This document shows, one piece after another, positions 1 through 15,500 of a stretch of DNA of 64,000 nt; positions within the stretch are counted from its first letter, which is position 1, and every line of letters begins with the position of its first letter. The DNA comes from an uncultured Acidobacteriia bacterium (lineage in GTDB: Bacteria; Acidobacteriota; Terriglobia; Bryobacterales; Bryobacteraceae), in contig CAIKMJ010000046.1 of the NCBI GenBank assembly GCA_903828455.1, forward strand, positions 124,001 through 188,000, written 5' to 3'. The notes below the pieces were generated by a model, which was not told the DNA's origin, did no database searches, and saw only the letters and a list, made by a program, of their open reading frames with translations. A program made the translations under genes and the position numbers.

Positions 1-343
1 ACTCGGTGGCGAGCTGTTCGCGGACGGCGACGAGGCGCGCGGGGGAGATCTCCACATTCACGTCGTATTCGCGACGGGTGCCGTCGGCCAGCCAGATCAC
101 GAGGCTGGTTTCACCGGGCAGATGGCCGTTGACCATGAGGCTGCGGGCGCTGACCGGTACCGCTTCGGCGGTTTCCGGAGCAGCCACCGAGACGCGCTCA
201 ATGTTGACCGGCATATCGAGCAGGTGCGTCTTGCCCGCTCCCACCACCAGCTTTTCCGCGGGCGGGAGAGTCGCCGAGCGCAGCGAGTTGGCGCAGAGGG
301 CGAGCGAGAGCAGCAACAGGATGTCGAACAGACGGCGTTTCAC
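1..343 (-). CDS. cpaC: Flp/Tad pilus secretin CpaC/RcpA, N-terminal part (runs off the window)
   Basis: Reading the minus strand from a GTG at 343 gives a signal-peptide-like start (MKRRLFDILLLLSLALCANS) followed by a region rich in short beta strands, with LVVGAGKTHLLDMP, then VERVSVAAPE-like text and SLVIWLADGTRREYDV. This is the pilus-formation N-terminal domain that precedes the secretin pore in CpaC/RcpA. Secretins form the outer-membrane channel of the tight-adherence pilus. The GTG overlaps the cpaB stop codon by four bases (GTGA), which argues for translational coupling and for this start. Only about 114 residues are present; the secretin domain lies outside the window. Family assignment rests on the domain pattern and on the cpaB neighbour. 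Confidence 0.85.
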   Translation of the reverse strand, partial: MKRRLFDILLLLSLALCANSLRSATLPPAEKLVVGAGKTHLLDMPVNIERVSVAAPETAEAVPVSARSLMVNGHLPGETSLVIWLADGTRREYDVNVEISPARLVAVREQLATE

Positions 344-1257
344 TGGCGTGCTCCCGTGGCGCTGCCGGGATCGGTGAAGGCGGATTCGGTGCGCTTGGAT
401 CCCTGAAAGACTTCAATCGTGACGGTCTGCGGGCGGGCCGGAGCAACCGGGGCAGCCGTGGCCGCGGCGGGCGGCGCGTAGACTCTGGGACGGGGAGCCG
501 GCTGGTCGTTCATCACGACGGGTCCGGCGGCTTTCTTAATCGTCATGCCGGAGAAGAGATTGCTGGTGGCCGCGCCGTCGGTGGCCACAACTTCCTGGTC
601 ACTCGGGTTGCGCAGCACGAGCTGGATGGATTGTTCGCTGGCCAGATTGAGCATTTCGGCCTGCGCCGGCGTGACGAGCAGATTGACGACCTGCACGAGC
701 ACGGGCTTGCCTTCGGCATCCTTCTGGTAGTTCTGGCCGGCGGAGAGAACCTGAATGTTTTGCAGCATGGTGCGCGTGACGGCGCCGGTGGTTTCGCGCG
801 AGGCGCCGGGCGGCGAGCCGGAGACGAGCACATCGACGCGCATACCGGCAACGGCGAAGCCGGCGACACCGACGACATCGTTCACGTGAACGGCGAAGGC
901 GCGCATGCCTTTGGGGATTGTGGAAGCGAAGCCGGCGCCGGCACCCTTGGGCGCCAGGGAGGCTTCGTAAAACGTTGCGTCCTGGTGGATCGGCGTGGTG
1001 ACGCCGCGATTGAGAATGTCTTCCTTTTTCATGATGGCGCCGGCGGGCGGCATCAGAAATTCCTGCGTCGCGATATCTTTTTCCTGAATCAGTGCGCCGA
1101 GTTCAAGATCATGCGCCGCGACGAAGACTCTTACCGTCTGCGGCTTGGTGGAAGCGCCGACACTCACTTTTGACGCGATCAACTGATACAGCACGAACGC
1201 GGCCCCGGCCGACACGGCCAGAGCGAACGCGAGCACGCTGAGTAATCGCTTTTTCAT
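340..1257 (-). CDS. cpaB: Flp pilus assembly protein CpaB
   Basis: A 305-residue protein with an N-terminal membrane anchor (about residues 5-28) followed by a SAF/CpaB domain (about 43-105; VRVFVAAHDLELGALI, then PPAGAIM) and an RcpC/CpaB periplasmic domain ending near 245. The C-terminal 50 residues are rich in proline and alanine. CpaB/RcpC is a periplasmic component of the Tad secretion apparatus and is thought to act with the secretin. Length is usual for the family. It lies between the pilin genes and the overlapping secretin gene on the same strand, the normal order in tad loci. Confidence 0.93.
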   Translation of the reverse strand: MKKRLLSVLAFALAVSAGAAFVLYQLIASKVSVGASTKPQTVRVFVAAHDLELGALIQEKDIATQEFLMPPAGAIMKKEDILNRGVTTPIHQDATFYEASLAPKGAGAGFASTIPKGMRAFAVHVNDVVGVAGFAVAGMRVDVLVSGSPPGASRETTGAVTRTMLQNIQVLSAGQNYQKDAEGKPVLVQVVNLLVTPAQAEMLNLASEQSIQLVLRNPSDQEVVATDGAATSNLFSGMTIKKAAGPVVMNDQPAPRPRVYAPPAAATAAPVAPARPQTVTIEVFQGSKRTESAFTDPGSATGARQ

Positions 1258-1369: not shown

Positions 1370-1555
1370 TTAGCTGGCGGCGACGGCGGCGTTGCTGATC
1401 TGCGTGCTGCCCGACTGCCAGATCGTTCCCACGCTGTTTCCGGCCTGAAGAAAGATCGAAGCCGAAGCAAGCGCAACGAACGCCATGAGCAGGGTGTATT
1501 CGATCAGATCCTGTCCCGATTCTTCCCGCAGGAAGTTATTGAGCAGTGCTTTCAT
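1370..1555 (-). CDS. flp: Flp family type IVb pilin (second copy)
   Basis: A 61-residue Flp pilin from the ATG at 1555. A longer reading frame exists upstream but adds 12 residues with no homology and breaks length agreement with its neighbour. Residues 1-14 form the charged leader ending in ESG. TadV/CpaA-type prepilin peptidase should cut after Gly14, before QDLIEYTLL, which holds the Flp signature Glu-Tyr. A hydrophobic helix of about 20 residues follows. It is the structural subunit of the tight-adherence pilus and is a close paralogue of the pilin at 1715-1900. Confidence 0.93.
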   Translation of the reverse strand: MKALLNNFLREESGQDLIEYTLLMAFVALASASIFLQAGNSVGTIWQSGSTQISNAAVAAS

Positions 1556-1667
1556 GTTGTCCTCCACGTTTTCGTAATCGCCGGTTCCCACGCCGGCGAA
1601 AGGCTGCAGTTTGGCCCGGACTGCCGTTCCTGAATCAGGCGGCAGGCCTGGCCCCGAAAGCCAGCCT

Positions 1668-1714: not shown

Positions 1715-1900
1715 TTAGCTGGCGGAAACGGCGGCGTTCGAGAGCTGGTTGCTGGCGTTCTTCCAGATGGAGTTGACGCTGGAACCGGCCTGAATGAAGA
1801 TCGCGGCCGAAGCGAGGGCGATGAACGCCATCAGCAGCGTGTATTCGATCAGATCCTGGCCCTGCTCTTCTTTCACGAAACGCATAAACATGTTTTTCAT
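1715..1900 (-). CDS. flp: Flp family type IVb pilin (first copy)
   Basis: A 61-residue Flp pilin with the same layout as its downstream paralogue: a charged leader of 14 residues ending in EEQG, predicted cleavage before QDLIEYTLL, then one hydrophobic helix and a short Ser/Ala-rich tail. A purine-rich ribosome site (AGGAAAAGGA on the minus strand) lies just upstream. The stop of the preceding membrane-protein gene is only about 20 bases away, so both may share a transcript. The differences between the two copies are mostly in the C-terminal third, which would be the exposed face of the pilus. Confidence 0.94.
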   Translation of the reverse strand: MKNMFMRFVKEEQGQDLIEYTLLMAFIALASAAIFIQAGSSVNSIWKNASNQLSNAAVSAS

Positions 1901-3644: not shown

Positions 3645-4013
3645 TTAAACGATCCTTGTTGCGACGGTCATGCTTGCGAGGTCGCTGTTCTTACGCGTGC
3701 GCGTCTTGACGAAGCGCATGGTGTCCACTTCGAACGCCACCGCGTGTTCATCTCCCTTTACAGGGGTGATCCGAACAACCCTACCCCTGCACCGCATAAC
3801 CCTGGGGCCAAAATCAGAGTTTTCCGGCAACGAGACGTCTAAAGTCATCGTTTTGGCGAGCTCCGGAAGGGCTACACCACCCGTCCAGCGCATCAAAATG
3901 CCAGTGCGGCTGACGTTCTCAGTGAGCACCCGGAGGGGGGTTGCTTCGATGCGATCAGCGCTCACAAAACAAGTCAGCTGCACATCCACTCGGTCTTTTT
4001 GTCGGCGGTCCAT
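3645..4013 (-). CDS. PilZ domain protein (probable c-di-GMP binding)
   Basis: About 122 residues from the ATG at 4013 (MDRRQKDRVDVQLTC). A frame extended upstream to 4079 adds 22 residues that look like untranslated sequence. Near the N-terminus is RRQKDRV, the position of the PilZ RxxxR motif, and further on NVSRTGILM matches the (D/N)xSxxG motif. These are the two c-di-GMP contact motifs. It is probably the first gene of the minus-strand Flp transcription unit, so pilus production or function may respond to c-di-GMP. That link is inferred from position. The residues following the domain are basic. Confidence 0.83.
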   Translation of the reverse strand: MDRRQKDRVDVQLTCFVSADRIEATPLRVLTENVSRTGILMRWTGGVALPELAKTMTLDVSLPENSDFGPRVMRCRGRVVRITPVKGDEHAVAFEVDTMRFVKTRTRKNSDLASMTVATRIV

Positions 4014-4334
4014 TTGCTGTTGTAAGTCTGAATTTATTACCAATGCCAGTGCGGGTACAATACCGAAAATGGGTGGCATAGTGATGCTATCGAAGGATAC
4101 ATGTGGCGGGTTAACCGCAGTTGTGGGTCCGAATCCGATTCGGCATAAATTCAGTTAAACCATTACAATATAACCACTTACTAATTTATGCGTAAATACT
4201 GCAACAAGTAGCAGGCCGAAACATAAAGAAGTTATATATCGGAGGTACCATCAAAACCAGCCCGGAATAAAATATTCCGAAGAAAACTACAAAAAGTATT
4301 AGAAATTTTTGCTGCAAGATGATATTCTCCATTC
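4014..4334. promoter_or_regulatory. AT-rich divergent intergenic region with two palindromes
   Basis: About 320 bases without a gene, between the PilZ gene and the broken LuxR regulator. The right half is clearly AT-rich, unlike the rest of the window. Two perfect inverted repeats stand out. CCGAATC-C-GATTCGG lies at 4129-4143 and CGGAATA-AAA-TATTCCG at 4263-4279. A GGTTAACC palindrome is at 4109-4116. An orphan GGAGG (around 4241) has no start codon at a useful distance. The region probably holds promoters and operators for both sides, but I cannot place the promoters firmly. Confidence 0.45.
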
Positions 4335-5078
4335 ATGGCAAGCGTACTCCTCTGTACCGATGAACCGATTTTGGCTGAAGGATTGGCCCGCATCCTGACG
4401 GGCGTTGAGGGTCTCGAGCTGGCGTCCTACTGCCCCGGCTTATAGGGCCTCAGGGAAACCCTAGAGAGCAGTCAACCAGACATCCTTCTGGTGGATCTGA
4501 CCGCCAGCATTACGTTTGGCGCGCTCAGCGGACTGCAGGAATCGGCCTCGCACGCCAAGATCGTGCTGTGGGTCCACTCCATCTCTACTGAACTGGCGCT
4601 GCAGGCCATGAGCCTCGGCGTACGGGGCATTCTGCGCAAGACACTGCCCACCGAAACGCTGCTGCGTTGCCTGACGCGCGTGATGGATGGCGAACTGTGG
4701 TTCGAAAAGGCGCTGACGGACAGTATTATGTCGGCGCGCCGCTACTCGCTGACCCGCCGCGAGGGGCAGCTGGTGAGCCTCCTGTCACAGGGACTCAAGA
4801 ATAAGGAAATCGCCACGGCGCTGAACATCTCCGAAGGCACGGTAAAGGTGTACCTGTCGCGGCTGTTCCAGAAACTGGGCGTAAAGGATCGCTTCGAACT
4901 GGCGCTCTACGGGCTGAAGAACCTTGCGCCGGGCGGATCGCTCGAAAATGGCGAAAAGCCGACCAGCGCCGGCGCTCCGGTCTGGCAGCCGCCGCGTTCG
5001 TTCTTCGTGGAACGGATTCCGCCGAAGGCTCAGGCCGCTCCGCCGCAGCCGCGCGCCATGGCCGCATACAAGTATTAA
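4335..5078 (+). pseudogene. NarL/LuxR response regulator interrupted by an in-frame TAG
   Basis: From the ATG at 4335 the frame reads MASVLLCTDEPILAEGLARI, the start of a receiver domain, up to codon 36. A TAG at 4443-4445 then stops it. The same frame continues without a shift as GLRETLESSQPDILLVDLTA, which holds the phospho-acceptor Asp, then a conserved Ser and Lys, and a complete LuxR helix-turn-helix (SLTRREGQLVSLL, then NKEIATALNISEGTVKVYL). Only a single codon is damaged. A GTG at 4491 could restart translation, but it lies inside the phospho-acceptor strand and would give half a receiver. Likely a recent nonsense mutation, a sequencing error or, less likely, readthrough. Confidence 0.72.
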
Positions 5079-5190: not shown

Positions 5191-5595
5191 TTAGTGGACG
5201 GGTTCGTGAACTTCGCGCAGCTCTTCGAGTCCGTCAAGGACCTTTTGGAGCAGTTCATCGGTCTGAACTACCATGTCGCGGAGCGCCTCGATGGAGCGGG
5301 CGTTCTGTTCGAAGCGGATTTCCGAATCGAAACGGACCCGGTTGAGGGCATCTTCGATGCCGGCGGCGTACTCACTGCGACTCACAGCGGTGGCCACGCG
5401 CGCCTCGATGTAGCGCGACTGATCGCCGAGACCCGCGACAGCCATCTCGAGCGTGGCGATCCGGGCGTCGAAACCCTTCTGAACAGAGGAGTTATCGGCG
5501 ATCCGGGCGATCAGTTGGACACCGCGCAGGATTCCGTAGGCGAATCCGGCGGTGACCACGAGCGATTTGGCGATTGGTCTCACGAACAAAGGCAA
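5191..5595 (-). CDS. Hypothetical protein, membrane-anchored coiled coil
   Basis: A 134-residue protein of unknown function. Residues about 9-28 form a weakly hydrophobic helix (SLVVTAGFAYGILRGV). The rest is charged and helical with heptad-like spacing (FDARIATLEMAVAGL, then ARSIEALRDMV and ELLQKVLDGLEEL). It may be anchored by its N-terminus and oligomerise through the coiled coil. It is transcribed toward the terminator of the upstream regulator and away from the histidine kinase. The same build (short membrane helix plus coiled coil) is seen in the protein at 7517-8428. No family recognised. Confidence 0.6.
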   Translation of the reverse strand: MPLFVRPIAKSLVVTAGFAYGILRGVQLIARIADNSSVQKGFDARIATLEMAVAGLGDQSRYIEARVATAVSRSEYAAGIEDALNRVRFDSEIRFEQNARSIEALRDMVVQTDELLQKVLDGLEELREVHEPVH

Positions 5596-5740: not shown

Positions 5741-6643
5741 GTGCCTGAAAATTTCCCACAGGTGAATCCTACTGAGGCCGGGAGCCGGGGATATCCGAGC
5801 GGAATCCCCCGAGGCGCGGCCCGGAACGATGTTCGCGCTGCGGCCGATCGCGGCGCTGAAGCCGCGGGCGCGGAAGTCAGCGGGAGAGAAACGGCGGCGT
5901 GGGCCGAAATGCTGGCGCGGATCGGGCGGCAGAACTGCCGATTGAATAGCCTGATCGAGCGGGCGCGGCCGCGCAATCAGCGGGCGCGGTCGGCGGGACG
6001 GGCGATTTTGGAAGAACTCGAAAAAGAACGCACCCGGATCGCACGAGACCTGCATGCGGGGGCCGGGCAACCGCTGGCGGGCATCAAGATGAACCTGGAT
6101 TTGATTGACGGATGCGCCGCGGAGCTGCCCGAAGGGGCGCGGACGGCGGTGACGCGACTCCGGACGCTGACCGATCAGGCTCTGGCGCAGGTACGCGCGG
6201 TGTCGCACCGGCTGCATCCGCCGGCCTGGCAGCAATTATCTACGGAACAGGCGATTCGCTCGCTGGTGGAGTCTTCCGGAATGATGGCACAGATGGAAAT
6301 GGTTCTGGACTTCCAGCCGCTGCCAACCGAGCCGGACCATGGCGTGAAGGTTTCGCTCTACCGCTGTGCGCAGGAATGCCTGTCCAATATTTCCCGGCAT
6401 GCCGAGGCGACGCGGATCGAAATCCGGCTTCGACCGGTGGACGGAGCGGTGGAACTGATGATTCGGGACAACGGTAAAGGCCTGACGCCTGGGGCGCCGA
6501 AGGGAAGCGGGATCGGCCTGCTGGCTCTTCACGAACATTCCGAGGCGATGGGCGGCACCACCGATATCGCGAGTGGCCCGGGCGGCACCACGGTTACGGT
6601 GCGGATTCCATTGCGAGAGGAATCCGACGAGGACGACGAGTAA
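5741..6643 (+). CDS. NarL-family sensor histidine kinase with altered H-box
   Basis: A 300-residue soluble kinase. About 85 variable N-terminal residues are followed by a HisKA_3 dimerisation domain with the H-box RIARDLHAGAGQPL (His105) and an HATPase domain with N-box QECLSNISRHAEA (Asn217), G1 DNGKG (243-247) and G2 GSGIGL (256-261). No sensor or membrane segment is seen, so input must come from the N-terminal stretch or a partner. The usual acidic residue after the phosphorylated His is Ala106 here, which is unusual. The GTG start at 5741 is uncertain. It precedes a NarL regulator by about 40 bases, its likely partner. Confidence 0.87.
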   Translation: MPENFPQVNPTEAGSRGYPSGIPRGAARNDVRAAADRGAEAAGAEVSGRETAAWAEMLARIGRQNCRLNSLIERARPRNQRARSAGRAILEELEKERTRIARDLHAGAGQPLAGIKMNLDLIDGCAAELPEGARTAVTRLRTLTDQALAQVRAVSHRLHPPAWQQLSTEQAIRSLVESSGMMAQMEMVLDFQPLPTEPDHGVKVSLYRCAQECLSNISRHAEATRIEIRLRPVDGAVELMIRDNGKGLTPGAPKGSGIGLLALHEHSEAMGGTTDIASGPGGTTVTVRIPLREESDEDDE

Positions 6644-6685: not shown

Positions 6686-7345
6686 ATGGAGACGACAGAA
6701 AAGACAATCACGCTGGTGCTGGCTGACGACCACGGCATTGTTCGGGAAGGCATTGCGGCCTTTTGCTCGACGCGGCCGGAGCTGAAAATCCTGGGACAGA
6801 CATCGGATGGAGCCGATGCCGTCGATTTGATTCTGGCGCTGAAGCCCGATTTTGCAGTGCTGGACCTCAATATGCCGAAGCTCAGCGGGCTCGACGTGGT
6901 GCGGCGGATCCGGCAGTCCAAGAGCGAAACCAAGCTCATCATCCTTTCGATCAGCCGGGACGAGAATGTAATCCGGGAACTATTCCGCAGCGGGGCGAAC
7001 GGATATTTATTGAAAGACGGGCCGGCACGTCATTTGTTTGACGCGATCAATTATATTCTCGATGGCGGCCAATATCTTACGCCGCTCATTCGCCGTGAAG
7101 CGATTGATATTAAAGTAGATAAAGCAGATCCGCTCACACTGCTCAGCAAGCGTGAGTATGAAGTATTCTCATTTTTGGTCGATGGGATGCGCCCCAAGGA
7201 CATCGCAAAACTATTAGATATCAGCCCTAAGACGGTCGATACTTACCGGGCCAATATCATGCGTAAATTAGAAATCGACGGAATCGCCGGTCTGGTTCGT
7301 TTCGCCATCCAGCGTAATCTTCAGTCGAACTCCATGCCCTGCTAA
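6686..7345 (+). CDS. NarL/FixJ-family response regulator
   Basis: A 219-residue regulator. The receiver (about 8-128) has Asp14/Asp15, phospho-acceptor Asp60 in FAVLDLNMPK, and the LLKDGP lysine. A LuxR-type helix-turn-helix (about 150-212) carries LSKREYEVFSFLVDGM and PKTVDTYRANIM. It should be phosphorylated by the kinase encoded just upstream and bind DNA. The receiver is closely similar to that of the large fusion protein at 8651-10627 (shared NLPK/NMPK and the YLLKxGPxRHL stretch), so the two may compete for one kinase. Confidence 0.93.
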   Translation: METTEKTITLVLADDHGIVREGIAAFCSTRPELKILGQTSDGADAVDLILALKPDFAVLDLNMPKLSGLDVVRRIRQSKSETKLIILSISRDENVIRELFRSGANGYLLKDGPARHLFDAINYILDGGQYLTPLIRREAIDIKVDKADPLTLLSKREYEVFSFLVDGMRPKDIAKLLDISPKTVDTYRANIMRKLEIDGIAGLVRFAIQRNLQSNSMPC

Positions 7346-7516: not shown

Positions 7517-8428
7517 ATGGCAAAGCTGATCAATATTCTGGCGGCTTCGCTCGGCAGCGGGTTGTTGCTGGGCGCCGGATTCCGCCTTGGCGAGAAACTG
7601 GCGGGAGAAGAGCGCGCCGCCGAGGGCGCGGGCGGCACAACGGCGGCGGGAGCGGCCCCGGCCGAACATTTCGGTGGAGGCCATTTCGCTGGAGCTAATG
7701 TAGCCGGTGAGATGTCCGAGCGGCTCGGCTTCCTGGAAGGACGGCTGTCGCATCTGGAGACGGTGGCGGTGCCGCCGCCCATGCCGCCGATCGATCTGAG
7801 CGGTCTGGAAGCACGGCTCGCGGCGCAGGCGAGGGAAGTTGCGGCCGTCCGGATGCGGCTGGACGAAGGGGCGGGGCGGATCGAATCGCTCGGCCAGACC
7901 GACGAGCGGCTGCGGAATGAGCTGCGTGGATGGGTCGACAAACGGGTGGACGAGCGACTGAAGGGCGTGGAGAGCAAGCTGCGGGCGGAAAGCGACGAAG
8001 CCCAGCGGGAAATGCTGAGCGCCGTCATCGACAGCGTTCAGACGCGAGTCATCCTGCGCATATCGAAACTGGAAGAAGAGCTTGCCGGGCAGGCGAACGG
8101 CATGATGGAATTACGCGACTGCACGCTGCGGACGGAAGACAGTATGCAGAAGCTGCTGGGCGGGATCGATCGGCTGATCGCCGCGCAACAGCAGCCGGCA
8201 CGGGCCCCGAAACCTGCACCCGCGCCGGAGCCGGCACCGGAGTTCCGGGCGAAAACAGCGCCGGCGCCCGAAGCCGTAAACGCACGTCCCAGGCAGCCCG
8301 AAAGCGCCCCGCAGCCAAAGCGGGCCGAAAGCCCGGCTGCAGTGAAATCGGCGGCCGATGCGCCGGCGAGACCGGTGGTGATGCCGTCGCTCGATTCCCC
8401 GCGCCGCCGCTGGAGCATTTTCGGATAG
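7517..8428 (+). CDS. Coiled-coil protein with N-terminal membrane helix and Pro/Ala-rich tail
   Basis: A 303-residue protein with a strong ribosome site (AAGAAGGAGG, 8 bases before ATG). Residues about 5-24 form a glycine-rich hydrophobic helix, 66-222 are predicted coiled coil, and 228-290 are low-complexity Pro/Ala/Lys. No catalytic domain is visible. Residues about 160-222 are homologous to residues 318-381 of the downstream receiver fusion (shared pattern QA..MM.LR...RTED......G.D.L). This conserved module suggests the two proteins form a mixed coiled coil or share a partner. Function unknown; the context implies a part in the local signalling system. Confidence 0.72.
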   Translation: MAKLINILAASLGSGLLLGAGFRLGEKLAGEERAAEGAGGTTAAGAAPAEHFGGGHFAGANVAGEMSERLGFLEGRLSHLETVAVPPPMPPIDLSGLEARLAAQAREVAAVRMRLDEGAGRIESLGQTDERLRNELRGWVDKRVDERLKGVESKLRAESDEAQREMLSAVIDSVQTRVILRISKLEEELAGQANGMMELRDCTLRTEDSMQKLLGGIDRLIAAQQQPARAPKPAPAPEPAPEFRAKTAPAPEAVNARPRQPESAPQPKRAESPAAVKSAADAPARPVVMPSLDSPRRRWSIFG

Positions 8429-8650
8429 GGCTAACGTGTACGGGCAGAGTTCGGAACAGTTTCGGAGCATGGAAAGCGCGCAGCTTCGGTGCGCCTCTCC
8501 CGCAAAGGGAAAGTCCGGTTTAATGCCTGATTCTACAGGGTTAATGTTAACGGCAGTACCGTTACCACAGGGGGACCGACAACGTATTCTCAGGTTCCGG
8601 ATTGACGTTAAAATGGGACTTCGGGCCGGTAAGGCGCGAAGAGTTGTGCA
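8429..8650 (+). promoter_or_regulatory. Long leader with possible RNA structure
   Basis: A 222-base spacer before the receiver-fusion gene. It contains a GCGC-CAGCTTCGGT-GCGC hairpin near 8476-8494, a CGCAAAG followed by GTCCGG, and AACGG/CCGTT arms near 8550-8564. It looks more structured than the other spacers but matches no riboswitch class that I can confirm. Confidence 0.3.
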
Positions 8651-10627
8651 ATGACCGCAACCGAAAGATTATCGATTCTTCTGGCCGACGAAGACGCACT
8701 GCGGCGGGACGGCCTGGCGGCAGTCCTGCAGGGGATGCCGGAGTTTCACGTTGTTGCGCAGTGTGCTGACGGGGACCAGGCGCTGATGAAGATTCGGGCG
8801 CTGCGTCCGCAGGTGGCTGTGGTGGATCTCAATCTACCCAAACTTCACGGTATCGAGCTGGTGCGCCGCGTGCGCAGCGAGGCTCTGGGAACGAGGATTA
8901 TAGTGCTTTCCGGAACTGCACACGACGATATCGTGCGCGAAGTGATTCGGGCGGGAGCTGATGGCTACCTGCTCAAAAACGGACCGGTCCGTCATCTGGT
9001 GGATGCGATCTCTTATGTGCGCGACGGCGGCCAGTATTTTTCGCCGCAACTGGGCCGCGACGGCCTCGACCGGCATCTGCTGGAGGAGTCGCCCCGCACC
9101 GGGCCTGCAGTGGACACCGCGTCCCGGCAGACAGTGTTTACGGGGACGGACACACCGGGTGACTTCGAAGGCGAACTGCCCGAAGGGGAAGCGCTCTATG
9201 AGCGCGTTTCGCGCGGACCCCGGTACAGCCGGACTCGCCGGTTTGGGCGGCGCGCAACCGACCGCATTCGGATGCAGCGGATCGTCGACGAGACAGGAAC
9301 CCAGCAACTCGACGAGCGCGACTACGAAATTCTCGACATGATGGCCGAAGGGATCCGGCCCATTCTGGACCGTCTGGACGAAATCGACACGCGGGTGGAG
9401 CAGATGGAGACCGGCGCCGAGCCGGTGCCGAGCAACCCCCGGGGCTGGCTGAGCAGGCAACTTGCGGACACGCTCGAAACGCCGGGACGACAAGGCGGGC
9501 ATGGCAGGCTGAGCAGCGATCTGGAAGCCAGGCTGCCGCGGATGATCGAGGAGGCGGTGAGCGCCCGGTTCCAGCAGATGGCCGGGAAGCTGCAGGACGA
9601 GATTGAAGAGACGCACGTCCGCACGCTGGAATCGTTCGTCAAGAACGTGCAGGTGAAGCTGGTGCAGCGCGTTTCGGCGCTGGAGACGGATATGTCCCGC
9701 CAGGCCAGCGCAATGATGCAGTTGCGGGAATACTCGCAGCGCACCGAAGACAATTTGAGCCGGCTGATTGCCGGCGTGGATAAACTGGCACAGGATCTGC
9801 CCAAACGGCTGGCCGGGATGCAGTCCGGACAGACGCAGTTGCCTTCCGGAACTGTAGTCGCGAAACCAGCGCCGTCACAGGGCGATTTCCGGGCAGCGGG
9901 CTCTGCGTCGGGATATCCTGCGTCGGGATATCCTGCGTCCGGATTTTCTCCGGCCGGGGCGGCTCCGGCTGCTGGCGAAAATTTGACGGATTCGGCCATG
10001 CCGGCTTCGGCGGCAAATCCGGCTGCAAACGACGGGAGCGCGGCCGACGGGTGGTCCTACTCCACCCCGGGCACTGGAGATACAGCGGCATCGCCGGGCG
10101 CGGCGCCGGGCATGGGAAGCGTTATGCGCCCCGCCAATTTCCGCCCGCCTGAATTTGTGCCTCCCGCCAAGCCAAAACCGCCCAAGCGGACCTGGAAGCA
10201 GAATGCGCCGAAGATCTTCTGGATTTCCGTGGCGTCGATTTTAGTCTTAACCGGCGGCGGACTGGGGCTGCGGCGAGCAATGACTCCGCCGGAAGCTGCT
10301 ACCGAAGCCGCGGCAGTCATGGCGGGCAATGGGTCTCCCATGCCGAAGCGTGCGGTCAAACTTACCCCGCCGCCGCCCAATGCCGATCTGAAAACCAAGC
10401 TGTCGGTGGCGCAGGAGTACATGGAGCGCAAGGATTACAGCACGGCAGAGGACATTTACCGCCAGGCGCTGAAGAGCGAACCGCAGAACCCGGAGGTCCT
10501 CAAACTGCTGGCCAGCGTGCTGTATCGCGAAGATAAGATTGAGGAAAGTGCCGCCGTTCTGGACAAACTGCCAAAGGAAGGCCCTCCCGGCACGGCGAAA
10601 GTCCCGGACATTAACGGGGCCCAATAG
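8651..10627 (+). CDS. Receiver-coiled coil-transmembrane-TPR fusion protein
   Basis: A 658-residue protein of unusual architecture. Residues 7-130 are a NarL-type receiver with acidic pair Asp13/Glu14, phospho-acceptor Asp59, Ser87 and Lys109. Residues 219-236 (QLDERDYEILDMMAEGIRP) match the first helix of a LuxR helix-turn-helix, but the DNA-recognition part is absent and a coiled coil follows (about 237-381). A disordered Pro/Ala/Gly region (390-510) leads to one transmembrane helix (about 521-540) and two TPR-like units (584-643). The receiver must be cytoplasmic, so the TPR part is probably periplasmic. The coiled coil is homologous to that of the preceding gene. Function unknown; it may carry a phosphorylation signal to the membrane rather than to DNA. 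Confidence 0.85.
   Translation: MTATERLSILLADEDALRRDGLAAVLQGMPEFHVVAQCADGDQALMKIRALRPQVAVVDLNLPKLHGIELVRRVRSEALGTRIIVLSGTAHDDIVREVIRAGADGYLLKNGPVRHLVDAISYVRDGGQYFSPQLGRDGLDRHLLEESPRTGPAVDTASRQTVFTGTDTPGDFEGELPEGEALYERVSRGPRYSRTRRFGRRATDRIRMQRIVDETGTQQLDERDYEILDMMAEGIRPILDRLDEIDTRVEQMETGAEPVPSNPRGWLSRQLADTLETPGRQGGHGRLSSDLEARLPRMIEEAVSARFQQMAGKLQDEIEETHVRTLESFVKNVQVKLVQRVSALETDMSRQASAMMQLREYSQRTEDNLSRLIAGVDKLAQDLPKRLAGMQSGQTQLPSGTVVAKPAPSQGDFRAAGSASGYPASGYPASGFSPAGAAPAAGENLTDSAMPASAANPAANDGSAADGWSYSTPGTGDTAASPGAAPGMGSVMRPANFRPPEFVPPAKPKPPKRTWKQNAPKIFWISVASILVLTGGGLGLRRAMTPPEAATEAAAVMAGNGSPMPKRAVKLTPPPPNADLKTKLSVAQEYMERKDYSTAEDIYRQALKSEPQNPEVLKLLASVLYREDKIEESAAVLDKLPKEGPPGTAKVPDINGAQ
9911..9940 (+). 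repeat. 15-bp tandem repeat inside the receiver-fusion gene
   Basis: Two copies of GGATATCCTGCGTC(G/C) encode GYPAS twice, flanked by a partial unit and a diverged third copy (GFSPA). The repeat keeps frame and lies in the disordered linker, so copy number could vary without damage. Confidence 0.8.
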
Positions 10628-10741: not shown

Positions 10742-10828
10742 GCGGATGTGGCGGAACTGGCAGACGCGCTAGATTCAGGTTCTAGTTGGGGCAACTCAGT
10801 GGAGGTTCAAGTCCTCTCATCCGCACCA
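10742..10828 (+). tRNA. tRNA-Leu (anticodon CAG)
   Basis: An 87-base class II tRNA. The acceptor arm GCGGATG pairs with CATCCGC. The anticodon stem CTAGA/TCTAG holds loop TTCAGGT with anticodon CAG, which reads CTG. A long variable arm (TTGGGGCAACTCA region) and the T-arm GGAGGTTCAAGTCCTC are present. The 3' CCA is encoded (10826-10828). All features fit tRNA-Leu. Confidence 0.97.
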
Positions 10829-10951: not shown

Positions 10952-12349
10952 TCACATCGCGCCGAGCTTCTCCCGGGCCGCCGTGTGCCCCTGCTCTGCA
11001 GCGAGGCGGTATAGGCGCAGGGCCCGCTCGTGGTCTTGCGACACTCCCCATCCATTTTCGTAAAGAACACCGAGGCCGAATTGCGCCGTCGGGTCTCCCT
11101 GTTCGGCCGCGAGCCGGTACCAGCGAGCCGCCTCGCCGAAGTTTTGCGGGACGGCGCCGGACTTTGCCAAATCGGTTCCCGGCGAACCCTGGTAGAGAGC
11201 GCCGAGCGCGACCTGGGCGGCGACGTTCCCCTGATCCGCGGCCATGCGGTACAAGCGCATTGCCAGACTGCGATCCTCGGCAAGACCCCAGCCATTGGCG
11301 CACAGGATGCCGAGGTTGTACTCCGCCTCCGCGCTGCCCTGCGACGCGGCGTGACGGTACAGCCGCAGGGCCTCCTGATAATCGCGCGGCACTCCGCGGC
11401 CGTTGGCATAAAGGATGCCGAGACCGGCCTCGGCAGCAGCATTTCCCTGCGCGGCGGCGAGACGATACAGGCGGACGGCTTCCTCGTAGTTTTGGGGCAC
11501 GCCCTTGCCCTCCGAGTACAGCGCTGCCAAGCCAGCCTGCGCGGCGGCCGAGCCGCGATCCGCCGCCATGCGATACCAGCGAACGGATTCGGCATAATCC
11601 TGCGGCACTCCGCGGCCCTCCTCGTACAGCGCGGCGAGCCGCACCTGGGCACCGGCGTTGCCCTGTGAGGCAGCCGCAATATAAAGACGCACGGCTGACT
11701 CGGGATCCCGCGGTACACCCCAGCCAGCGGCATACAGGACGCCGAGGTTCAGCTCGGCACCGGCATTTCCCTGCTCCGCGGCGAGGCGAAACCAGCGGGC
11801 GGCTTCTTTCAAATCCCGCGTGACGCCCTGGCCCTGCAAATAGAGGACGCCGAGGGCGACCTGCGCGTCGGCGCTTTCCTTGTCGGCGGCCATGCGATAC
11901 CAGCGGGCGGCCTCAATGTAGTCCTGCGCCACGCCCTGACCGCTGGCGTACAGGATGCCGAGATTGAGCTGCGCGCCGGCGTTTCCCGAGGCAGCCGCCA
12001 GACGGAACCAGCGGGCGGCCTCGTTGTAGTCCCGCGGCACGCCGCGACCCTGATAGGACGCGACGCCGAGGGCAGCCTGCGCATCGGGGCTTCCCTGATC
12101 CGCCGCGAGCCTGAGCAGGCGGAGGGCTTCGTCGTAATCCTGCGGCACGCCGCGGCCCTGGTAGTACATGACGCCGAGGTTGGCCTGGGCATCCTTGTTC
12201 CCCTGGCTGGCCAAAGGCCGGCATTCCGCAGACGCCAGATCGAAGGCGTTAGCGTGGAAGGCCTCGACGCAGGTTGCAAGGTCGGCCAGCGCCGGCATGC
12301 AGAGCAGCAGGCTCAGGGCGACAGACCGGACGCCAATAACAGACTTCAC
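10952..12349 (-). CDS. Sel1-repeat (TPR-like) exported protein
   Basis: About 465 residues from the GTG at 12349, giving a signal peptide (VKSVIGVRSVALSLLLCMPA) cleaved near ALA-DLA. The frame stays open upstream to 12769, but that part overlaps the divergent receptor gene and shows no domain. After a short cysteine-containing N-terminal region come eleven Sel1 repeats of 36 residues, each with the A-x-x-x-L-G-x-x-Y..G.GV..D...A..W/L.R.AA pattern, and a partial twelfth. The tenth repeat carries an eight-residue insertion. Sel1 proteins are periplasmic or secreted adaptors. No enzymatic domain is present. Partner unknown. The start remains uncertain because GGAG lies 14 bases ahead. Confidence 0.85.
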   Translation of the reverse strand: MKSVIGVRSVALSLLLCMPALADLATCVEAFHANAFDLASAECRPLASQGNKDAQANLGVMYYQGRGVPQDYDEALRLLRLAADQGSPDAQAALGVASYQGRGVPRDYNEAARWFRLAAASGNAGAQLNLGILYASGQGVAQDYIEAARWYRMAADKESADAQVALGVLYLQGQGVTRDLKEAARWFRLAAEQGNAGAELNLGVLYAAGWGVPRDPESAVRLYIAAASQGNAGAQVRLAALYEEGRGVPQDYAESVRWYRMAADRGSAAAQAGLAALYSEGKGVPQNYEEAVRLYRLAAAQGNAAAEAGLGILYANGRGVPRDYQEALRLYRHAASQGSAEAEYNLGILCANGWGLAEDRSLAMRLYRMAADQGNVAAQVALGALYQGSPGTDLAKSGAVPQNFGEAARWYRLAAEQGDPTAQFGLGVLYENGWGVSQDHERALRLYRLAAEQGHTAAREKLGAM

Positions 12350-12508
12350 GCCAATAATGATATCTCCAACTTCCGCGGGCCACTCTGCCCGGCGGCCAGG
12401 CTGGTCTTTTGTAATGGGTCTTTCATAATTTGCGTTCGGCCCGGTATAGGTATAAAATTGGCAACCAGTAAAGGTACGAGGTTGCGCTTTGGTCGAAGGA
12501 GTTAACGA

Positions 12509-15500
12509 ATGAAACTGACGAAAATTCAACATTTTGGGGGCATAGTTCTGCTGCTGTCGCTGGCGGGAGCTCAGGCGCTCTTCGGGCAGACGAGTTCGTC
12601 TACGATTTCGGGCACTGTCAGCGACACCTCCGGCGCCGCCGTTGTGGGCGCGGCTGTGGCGGTGAAGAACATCGACACCGGGGTGACGGCGAATCTGACG
12701 ACGGATGCCGAAGGGCGCTACCGTGCGCCGGAAATCGTTCTGGGCAATTACGAGGTGCGGGCTACGCATCCGGGGTTCGAGACGGTGGTGCGTTCGGGGA
12801 TCTCGACCGCAGTCGGCGAAGAAGCGATTGTGGACATCTCGCTGCCGGTTGGGCAGGCGAGCCAGGTGGTGACGGTGGACTCGGTGGTGACCCAGGTGGA
12901 TACGTCAACGTCGGCGCTGAGTGTGACCTTCGACCAGCAGCAGATGTCGGATCTGCCGATGGGAACGGCGCGGAACTTCGTGGATCTGATCAATCTGGCG
13001 CCCGGCGTGGCTGCGATTCAGAACGGCAACGGCGGCGTGGCGTACGGCCAGCAGGCGAACTATACGGTTTCGGGTTCGCGGCCCACGGGGCTGGGATTTC
13101 TGATCGACAGCACGAATTTCACGACGTTTAATGGAAAGTCGGCGGGCTCGGGCGCAACGGGCTTTTCGCCGGGCATTGAGGCGCTTTCCCAGTTCCAGGT
13201 GCTGACGAATACGTACAGCGCACAGTTTGGCGGCAACGGGATCGTGGTGAACGCGGCCAGCAAATCGGGCACCAACTCGATGCATGGTTCGGCGTACATC
13301 TTCGTCGGAAACAGCTTTTTCAGTGCGCGCGGGGAATTCGACACGGTGGTGAATCCGGGGCAGACGGCGGCACATGTTCCGCCTTCGCACACGGGAGTTC
13401 TGGGCGGCAGCGTGGGCGGGCCCATCAAAAAGAACAAGCTGTTCTACTTTGTGAATTACGAAGCGACGCGGCAGGGCGGCGAAACGACGCAGCAAAATAC
13501 CAACGTACCGGACGCAAATGCACATGCGGGATATCTGCCGTGCGCGGTTGCGAACGGCACGGCGACCGCCCCGACCAAGGGGGGCGGTAAAGGCGGGACG
13601 ACCACCGGCACAGCCACCTATCCCTGCGACAACAACACCGGACTGGCTTACGTCGGCTTTGCTCCGGCGATTCAGCCGCTGATGAACCTGCTGCCGACGG
13701 CGCAGACTTCGGTTTCGCTCGGCCAGGGCATCCAGACGCAGCTGAATCCGACCGGCGCGCACGACAACTACACGCTGGGACGGGTCGATTACACCATTTC
13801 AGACCGCGACACGATTTTCATGCGCATGGTTCATGAAAATGCTTACCGGCTGATCACGCAGGGTGTGGGCGTTTATACGGAAAAGGACGCGACATCGAAC
13901 TGGTATGCGACGGTGGAAGAGCGGCACACGATTTCGCCGAGCATGATCAATCTGGCGCGAATCAGCCTGCTGCGGCCGCAGGAAATCGCGGTGGAAAATA
14001 CGCCGAGCATTCCGGCACTGCATCTGATCCCGGGATCGATTGCCGACGCTTCGGTCATTGTGCCGTCCGGCAACCGGATTCTGGGGCCGAACCAGAACAC
14101 GCCGTTCAATCTGACGCAGGACGGATTCCAGTTGATGGACGACGTGATCTGGAGCCGCGGGGCGCATAACGTGAAGTTCGGCGTCGGCACCACATACACG
14201 AAGGACTACACCTTTGAAGTGAGCGGAGCGCCGGGCGGGCAGTTGACGTTTAACTCGATTCTGACCTTTATGCAGGGCCTTCCGGCACAGTTGCAGGCGC
14301 CGCTGCCGGGCCAGAGCTACAACAACCGCGACATGTCGGAAAGGACGCTGACGCCTTATATTCATGACGAATGGAAATTTTCGCGCCGGCTGACGCTGAA
14401 CATCGGGCTGCGGTACGAGTGGGCGGCCAATCCGAGCGAGTATCGAAACAACTTCTGGAACTTCCCGCAGCCGCTGACGAATACGACGTGGGTGAATATT
14501 CCGAAGGCGTTTGCGAACAATCCGACGAATAAGAATTTTGCGCCGCGGTTCGGGTTTGCGTACGATCCGTTCAACGATCACAAGACGTCGGTTCGCGGCG
14601 GGTTCGGAATTTTCTATGACGTGATGACCGGCCACATCATCCTGCCGGCCTACTGGGGTGCATATCCGTATGCACAAGGCACGGTGACGAGCCCGCCGTG
14701 GCCGAATCCGTATTCCTCGTTCCAGGGAGCGACGTCGGTATCTGCTCCGTCTCTTGGGGCCGGCGTGTTGTATGGAAACGGCAAAACGAGCACGCCGTAC
14801 GCGATGCAGTACAACCTGAATATTCAGCGCGAGGTGTACAAGGGCGCAATTCTGCAGGTGGCGTATGTGGGGTCGCGCGGGGTACATCTGCTGCAGACGA
14901 TTGAGACGAATCCGCCGCAGATCATCAATGGCGTATTCGGGACGCTGAACACGACGAACGGAACAACGACGCCGAATCCGCGCATCAATCCGAATCTGGG
15001 AAGCCTGGCGATGCGGGCACCGATCGGGAGTTCGCACTACAACGCGCTGCAGGTGAATCTGACGCGCCGGTTTGCCTCGCATTTTTCGGCGAACGTGTCC
15101 TACGCGTATTCGAAGTCGATCGATTACGGTTCGGCGTTCTCACAGGATTCGTCGGTCAGCAGCAATACGCTGACGCTGGACCCTTACAATACGAAAATCG
15201 ACCGCGGGCTTTCGACGTTCGACCGGACGCACGTACTGCGCACGAACATCGTCTATGAGCTGCCGTTCAGCCAGAACCAGTTCGTGAAGGGCTGGAGGCT
15301 GACAGGCATTTACAGCCAGAGCACGGGCGCTCCGACGACGATCACCACCGGATTTGAACGGACCGGCCTCGGCGGCAATTCTGGCGGCGCAAACCGGCCG
15401 GACCTGGCGCCGGGCTGCAGTCCGAATCCGATTATCGGCACGATTCAGGAATGGTTCGACATTTCCTGCTTCACGCTGCAGGCGGTGGGGACGATCGGCA

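Follow-up and report, generated by a model that had tools for sequence, protein, structure and literature searches.

RRcc, a conserved fusion of a receiver, a helix, a membrane segment and TPR repeats in a genus of Bryobacteraceae, and its possible role as a membrane-spanning adaptor

Response regulators are usually the soluble end points of a signalling pathway, and the locus described here raises the question of what a receiver may do when it is joined, in a single polypeptide, to a long helix, a membrane segment and TPR repeats. The locus lies in a stretch of 64,000 nucleotides (the window) from an uncultured Acidobacteriia bacterium of the family Bryobacteraceae (GenBank assembly GCA_903828455.1, contig CAIKMJ010000046.1, positions 124,001 to 188,000 of the forward strand). 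The receiver fusion, called RRcc, is encoded on the plus strand at 8651..10627 (658 aa), and cc303 (7517..8428, plus strand, 303 aa) precedes it; both open reading frames (ORFs) were found as the original prediction, made from the letters of the window alone, had given them. From the architecture, conservation, homology and synteny observed for RRcc, and from its one hydrophobic segment with a charge bias, it is tentatively proposed that this protein is a membrane-spanning receiver adaptor, with a topology, partners, direction and function that we infer.

Architecture and conservation of RRcc

From its N terminus on, RRcc is composed of a receiver (residues 9-120), a remnant of a helix-turn-helix (HTH, about 219-237), two helical stretches (222-253 and 289-391), a variable linker, a transmembrane (TM) segment (522-540) and TPR repeats (577-643). 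In Pfam, the receiver is matched by PF00072 over residues 9-120 (E 3.1e-21) and TPR is matched within 584-646 (TPR_19, E 1.8e-9). No GerE match is obtained in Pfam at E <= 1, in agreement with the earlier view that the output of RRcc is not the usual DNA-binding domain. A single-sequence model of the protein has a mean predicted local distance difference test (pLDDT) score of 50.9, with a confident four-helix TPR at 580-638 (blocks of 85-91) and a helix at 289-391 of which only the part 351-390 is confident; that of cc303 has a mean pLDDT of 56.7 and a helix at 161-225.

Nineteen genomes of the genus were searched, and the full-length copies of RRcc, present in 15 of them, make up a 15-row alignment. 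Outside this alignment stand a copy of 134 aa at a contig end (G007) and one with a broken frame, split into two ORFs (G008); in G011 and G013 the helix profile found nothing. The architecture thus recurs beyond the genome in which it was noticed. Mean pairwise identity among the 15 proteins is 0.70 in the receiver, 0.70 in the HTH remnant with the first helix, 0.72 in the long helix and 0.63 in the TPR, compared with 0.17-0.40 in the linkers and the TM, and the linker between the long helix and the TM varies from 19 to 127 residues. The build of receiver, helix, TM and TPR is conserved across the genus.

Beyond the genus, an order-wide search with the helix profile gave a match at E <= 0.001 in 27 of 250 genomes, 12 of them outside the genus; eight of these 12 were examined, and the four that looked weakest (G122, G170, G181 and G212) were left out. 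A phylum-wide search of 396 genomes with this profile found matches only in the own genome and, weakly, in G274 (4.7e-4); helix-profile searches are blind to receiver-TM-TPR fusions built on another helix. A scan of genome contigs with RRcc as the query gave two matches, both receiver-only, with 27 and 32% identity. The TPR of RRcc, searched against PDB sequences, matched 43 of them, for the most part TPR proteins of designed or ordinary kind. A literature search by names of membrane-bound response regulators gave no paper, and among the papers listed by wider searches, judged by title and the opening of the abstract in a collection that mostly lacks subscription papers, none was noticed to describe a protein with this architecture.

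The best hydrophobic window of RRcc outside the receiver is the one at 522-540, with a Kyte-Doolittle (KD) mean of 1.94, and the next best anywhere in the protein reaches 0.97, so that the single membrane helix followed by TPR that had been noted earlier is borne out. Such a window lies between helix and TPR in all 15 proteins (KD mean 1.63-2.59), the next-best windows having means of 0.78-1.55, the highest of which (G001, 1.55) falls inside the receiver. Lysine and arginine residues around the TM are more numerous on its N-terminal than on its C-terminal flank in 15 of 15 cases (5-8 vs 0-4), and the TPR is therefore predicted to be periplasmic. This charge bias favours the location that the original prediction had assigned to the repeats, which stays a matter of inference. 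The RodZ_C domain of Escherichia coli RodZ is periplasmic, and the occurrence of the helix module ahead of a TM and RodZ_C in two other genomes (G021 and G149) is counted in favour of the adaptor.

The receiver of the RRcc in the window carries D13, E14, D59, S87 and K109, so that its description as intact holds for this copy; it does not hold for the family, in which D59 is kept in 14 of 15 proteins (Glu in G016), E14 in 12 and K109 in all 15, and in which the switch residue Ser87 is kept in just six and replaced by Ala in nine. RR2, a NarL/LuxR response regulator with a GerE HTH (6686..7345, plus strand), is canonical at all checked receiver sites in 12 of 12 cases, and judged by these residues the receiver of RRcc has drifted relative to RR2. 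The alpha-1 helix, which helps to set the choice of kinase, is conserved within each of the two families (identity 0.76 and 0.77). When RRcc is compared with RR2 inside one genome, the beta5 loop, alpha5 and the stretch that follows are 0.61-0.74 identical (12 genomes); alpha5 can form dimers.

Origin of the fusion and of its helix module

Among PDB sequences, the receiver of RRcc is closest to NarL (1a04, E 1.6e-18), and PRK10651 NarL of NCBIfam is matched at 8.4e-26, below its cut-off. RRcc shares with the NarL/FixJ (LuxR-type) regulators this receiver and the first HTH segment, whereas the recognition helix is replaced in it by the long helix, which is followed by TM and TPR. In the own genome, where 51 receiver matches were obtained, RR2 is the best match of the RRcc receiver (5.7e-38), the next receiver being at 1.1e-25. 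RRcc can be aligned with RR2 past the receiver and through the whole of the first HTH segment, where 19-21 residues are aligned, and the HTH profile of RR2 scores a mean of 12.0 bits on the RRcc rows, compared with at most 2.1 in column shuffles (0 of 300 as good). When single rows were tested, the signal was weaker: 7.5 bits marked the 99.9th percentile among 3000 row shuffles, a value exceeded by 13 of the 15 rows. RRcc thus probably descended from a NarL/LuxR-type regulator of the RR2 lineage, with loss of the DNA-binding part.

A receiver tree of 45 rows, rooted at the midpoint and including only 11 hand-chosen receivers that belong to none of the RRcc, RR2 and tail-anchored groups, places RRcc together with two tail-anchored paralogues from G014 and G018 (support 96/93), and this group with RR2 (98/97). 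RRcc alone forms an open fork (81/86), as does RR2 (96/88), and the RR2 of G005 sits on a long branch. RR2 proteins of other genera cluster with RR2, so that either the duplication predates the genus or RRcc has evolved fast. The two tail-anchored receiver paralogues (G018, locus L106, 5594-6775; G014, locus L105, 5314-6453) have a hydrophobic C-terminal segment and no HTH or TPR in Pfam; in the former, inspection by eye shows Arg at the site of the conserved Lys.

A receiver-free counterpart of the rest of RRcc is found in g64, another genus of the same family, where proteins of three genomes (G151, G188 and G178) have the homologous helix module, a TM and TPR, with an N-terminal hydrophobic helix in place of the receiver. 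Their C-terminal part matches the TPR profile of RRcc at E 3.7e-17 to 3.4e-23, and the first hydrophobic helix is weak in G188 (1.42). A histidine kinase (HK) and RR2 lie in the same stretch in two of these three genomes: in G178 the helix-TM-TPR gene adjoins HK, RR2 and a cc134-like gene, in G188 about 2.7 kb lie between it and these three, and in G151 the contig ends. G039 encodes, near RR2 and a cut HK, a helix protein that has two hydrophobic windows and a partial TPR match.

The helix module itself links RRcc to cc303, a protein with an N-terminal hydrophobic helix (residues 4-22) and nothing above cut-off in Pfam. The shared pattern of RTED and QA..MM.LR that had drawn attention to the pair, a QA..MM.LR...RTED stretch at residues 192-208 of cc303 and 351-367 of RRcc, is part of a BLASTP alignment of 162 columns (E 3e-17), and profile-profile comparison with hhalign gives a probability of 99.4 (E 2e-21); the best of 2000 shuffles of residues 61-230 reached 26.2 bits vs 63.5 for the real sequence. 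Searched against its own genome, cc303 has RRcc as best non-self match (3.3e-13), followed by one paralogue at 3.3e-9 and then by a match at 0.0065. By these comparisons, the modules of cc303 and RRcc are homologous and form one family. The cc303 alignment consists of the 10 neighbours of RRcc and the own-genome paralogue; as called, the N-terminal hydrophobic helix is absent in three of the 10 neighbouring genes (G014, G017 and G018), and the G010 protein has 114 aa and misses much of the helix. The paralogue, of 313 residues, is encoded away from the cluster (C27 of the own genome, locus L003, 1360-2301), and similar proteins occur in other genomes of the genus.

Membership of cc134 in this family is weakly suggested and goes through intermediates, the direct link being weak. 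cc134 (5191..5595, minus strand) is a small divergent protein of uncertain start codon, with a hydrophobic N-terminal helix and a similar helix motif at its end, and a protein of 185 residues from G037 (locus L101, 2494-3051) matches the RRcc, cc303 and cc134 profiles at 8.7e-9, 3.1e-13 and 1.1e-12, respectively. In G021 and G149 (locus L091, 8745-9973, and locus L098, 8080-9684) a single TM and RodZ_C follow a related helix module; these proteins differ from RRcc in their N-terminal domain, which is not a receiver in Pfam, and in their C-terminal domain, and the module therefore seems to be reused ahead of several C-terminal domains. A PDB search with the helix profile gave a single match, at E 0.35, which was disregarded.

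Whether the module is a coiled coil, as had been supposed, is partly supported by its periodicity. In RRcc, residues 222-253 repeat with a heptad-like period of 3.52, a signal that 1 of 2000 shuffles equalled, whereas the long helix (289-391) has one of 3.86 (5 of 2000), its part 313-382 one of 3.60 (91 of 2000) and cc303 periods of 3.86-3.90 (53 and 145 of 2000). The heptad-like signal thus appears confined to 222-253.

The locus and its neighbours

Upstream of RR2 in the window lies HK (5741..6643, plus strand), a HisKA_3 and HATPase histidine kinase in which neither a sensor domain (Pfam) nor a membrane segment (best KD window 0.73) was found. RR1 (4335..5078, plus strand), a LuxR-type regulator frame whose start was set by comparison with relatives, is interrupted in the window by an in-frame TAG; seven relatives are intact, with 245-286 aa, and it may be a pseudogene or carry a sequence error. 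A PilZ-domain protein (3645..4079, minus strand; PF07238, E 4.3e-7) comes next, and closer to the window start a Tad/Flp pilus operon, encoded on the minus strand, runs past that start, with a secretin, a CpaE/TadZ-like protein, a T2SSE ATPase and two T2SSF proteins. CpaB/RcpC (340..1257, minus strand) is matched by TIGR03177 at E 6.2e-51, over the NCBIfam cut-off, and the CpaE-like protein by TIGR03815 at E 4.7e-13, below it; the other operon genes are presumed to deserve their tad names from domain and order. A prepilin peptidase gene lies near the operon, on the opposite strand and outside the window. Two small ORFs on the minus strand were picked by eye as Flp-pilin-like, after a motif which we take to be that of Flp pilins: 1370..1591, which has no Pfam match, and 1715..1900, which has no match in Pfam or NCBIfam.

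Just downstream of RRcc lies a tRNA gene (10742-10825), the one hit that Rfam gives for the window at its gathering scores, and a protein of 605 residues with Sel1 repeats in 11 stretches (10952-12769) faces RRcc. A scan for promoters and terminators gave 3 and 7 sites where 1.3 and 5.7 were expected, and was given no weight.

In the 15 genomes with full-length RRcc, the genes beside it are RR2 in 12, HK in 11 (not in G005), cc303 in 10 and cc134 in seven; RR1 is near it in eight, PilZ in seven, the protein MP572 in six and CpaB in five. RR2 is present in G004 and G005 with no cc303-type gene between it and RRcc. The view of the neighbourhood is limited by contig ends in G002, G004 and G015, and the CpaB of G001 lies near the start of another contig. 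RRcc was seen by eye near uvrA-like genes in G002 and G015. The partnership of cc303 and RRcc is real but dispensable: with the two genes adjacent in 10 of 15 genomes, the condition under which the original prediction would have been refuted, that they never co-occur in other genomes, does not hold, yet the pair is not obligatory. The Tad neighbourhood of RRcc is likewise frequent, not general.

Possible functions and their alternatives

According to the adaptor reading, a regulator of the RR2 lineage would have retained its receiver together with the beginning of the HTH and lost the DNA-recognition helix. RRcc carries, in one polypeptide, the kind of helix-TM-TPR part that g64 has as a separate protein near the same HK and RR2. 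Its receiver and helix would be cytoplasmic, where they may dock RR2, HK or themselves and pair with cc303 and cc134, and its TPR would be periplasmic and bind an envelope partner, plausibly, in genomes with the cluster next to the Tad operon, a component of that pilus. The TPR end would most likely report the state of the envelope or pilus inward, or else hold a signalling complex in place at one point of the envelope; phosphorylation would modulate RRcc rather than strictly drive it.

Several observations weigh against this proposal. The alpha-1 helices of RRcc and RR2 of the same genome are only 0.28 identical (12 genomes), and such unlike helices argue against a shared kinase. As for the descent from RR2, the best of the 3000 row shuffles reached 13.1 bits, above the 12.0 bits of the window's own RRcc, and hhalign aligns the HTH remnant with RR2 over 21 residues at a probability of 40 (E 3e-4). 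The direct profile-profile link of cc134 is at E 0.0036 and probability 9 with RRcc, and at E 6.6e-5 and probability 64, in a different register, with cc303. In the model of RRcc, the TM is represented by no more than a short helix at 528-534, of low confidence, and both single-sequence models are weak, as their means indicate, and cannot show a complex. The synteny with the Tad genes is partial, with some contigs cut, and RRcc has no HK, RR2 or cc303 beside it in G002, G015 and G016, the contigs of G002 and G015 ending close by, and therefore it may act without them. A search for RR2 in these three genomes gave no ortholog at E below 1e-100, and weaker matches to the cc303 profile occur elsewhere in G015 and G016 (1.4e-12 and 9.7e-15, respectively).

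Precedents differ from RRcc in one part or another. Archaea have a membrane-anchored MetOD3 output domain and, separately, combinations of TPR and receiver (PMC5847659); in the text considered, anchoring and TPR are named apart and not as receiver, helix, TM and TPR in one protein. The TPR protein SgmX and the receiver protein FrzS of Myxococcus xanthus offer another comparison. In FrzS, an atypical receiver that lacks the phospho-Asp is combined with a long coiled coil (PMC1974792); this receiver binds SgmX, an activator of type IV pili (PMC12632262). A receiver followed by a long helical region is common to FrzS and RRcc; the latter differs in keeping the phospho-Asp in 14 of 15 proteins and in having a TM and a fused TPR.

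RRcc could instead be a membrane decoy that pairs with RR2 through the beta5-alpha5 face, a putative dimer face, or takes the phosphate of HK and thereby holds RR2 down, the TPR and TM being nothing but an anchor. This would account for the contrast between the similar beta5-alpha5 side and the dissimilar alpha-1, and it suits a protein without recognition helix that has RR2 adjacent in 12 of 15 genomes, yet it is rather unlikely, since a TPR identity of 0.63 over 15 genomes is much for a mere anchor and three genomes have RRcc and no RR2 ortholog. The original prediction had favoured an outward signal, in which HK would phosphorylate the receiver and the change would pass through helix and TM to a periplasmic TPR. 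The phospho-Asp kept in 14 of 15 proteins, the Lys kept in 15 and the HK adjacent in 11 of 15 genomes agree with it, whereas the replacement of Ser by Ala in nine proteins, the loss of the second acidic residue in three and the change of Asp to Glu in one do not, RR2 being canonical throughout. Phosphotransfer from HK to RRcc is made less certain by this drift and by an alpha-1 unlike that of RR2, and a rigid conformational signal is disfavoured because the variable linker of 19-127 residues, a poor path for it, separates helix and TM; the outward route as a whole, by which phosphorylation signals would cross the membrane via RRcc, appears unlikely.

It can also be argued that RRcc recruits pilus machinery to one site of the cell by protein contacts and independently of phosphorylation, as the precedent of FrzS with its atypical receiver and coiled coil (PMC1974792) and its binding to SgmX (PMC12632262) would suggest, together with the drift of the receiver, the constraint on the helix and the Tad neighbourhood of part of the genomes. 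Set against this positioning role, which seems distinctly unlikely, are the membrane segment of RRcc, the Asp kept in 14 of 15, the absence of FrzS from the 15 PDB sequences that match the receiver at E 1e-12 or better, with NarL first, and the fact that PilZ, the commonest neighbour on the Tad side, is near in just seven of 15 genomes. That RRcc is a lineage-specific degenerate fusion of little function would fit its narrow range, the helix profile matching in two of 396 phylum genomes (the own genome and the match at 4.7e-4), and is very improbable, as four blocks with 63-72% identity over 15 genomes, compared with 17-40% between them, disfavour it.

The adaptor reading admits a more specific version, for which the chances are low: after the duplication, RRcc would have traded the recognition helix for a helix-TM-TPR stalk, and contact of the periplasmic TPR, for instance with the Tad pilus, would set the availability of a receiver that gates the sister regulator RR2. 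If this were true, an outside-in signal would enter a two-component system at the response regulator and not at the sensor kinase. The family offers comparable forms, namely the canonical RR2, RRcc with its HTH stump, the tail-anchored receiver paralogues and the receiver-free helix-TM-TPR protein of g64, and by comparing such forms one can test by what route a regulator that binds DNA turns into a membrane adaptor, and whether the regulator may be the point at which a signal enters a two-component system.

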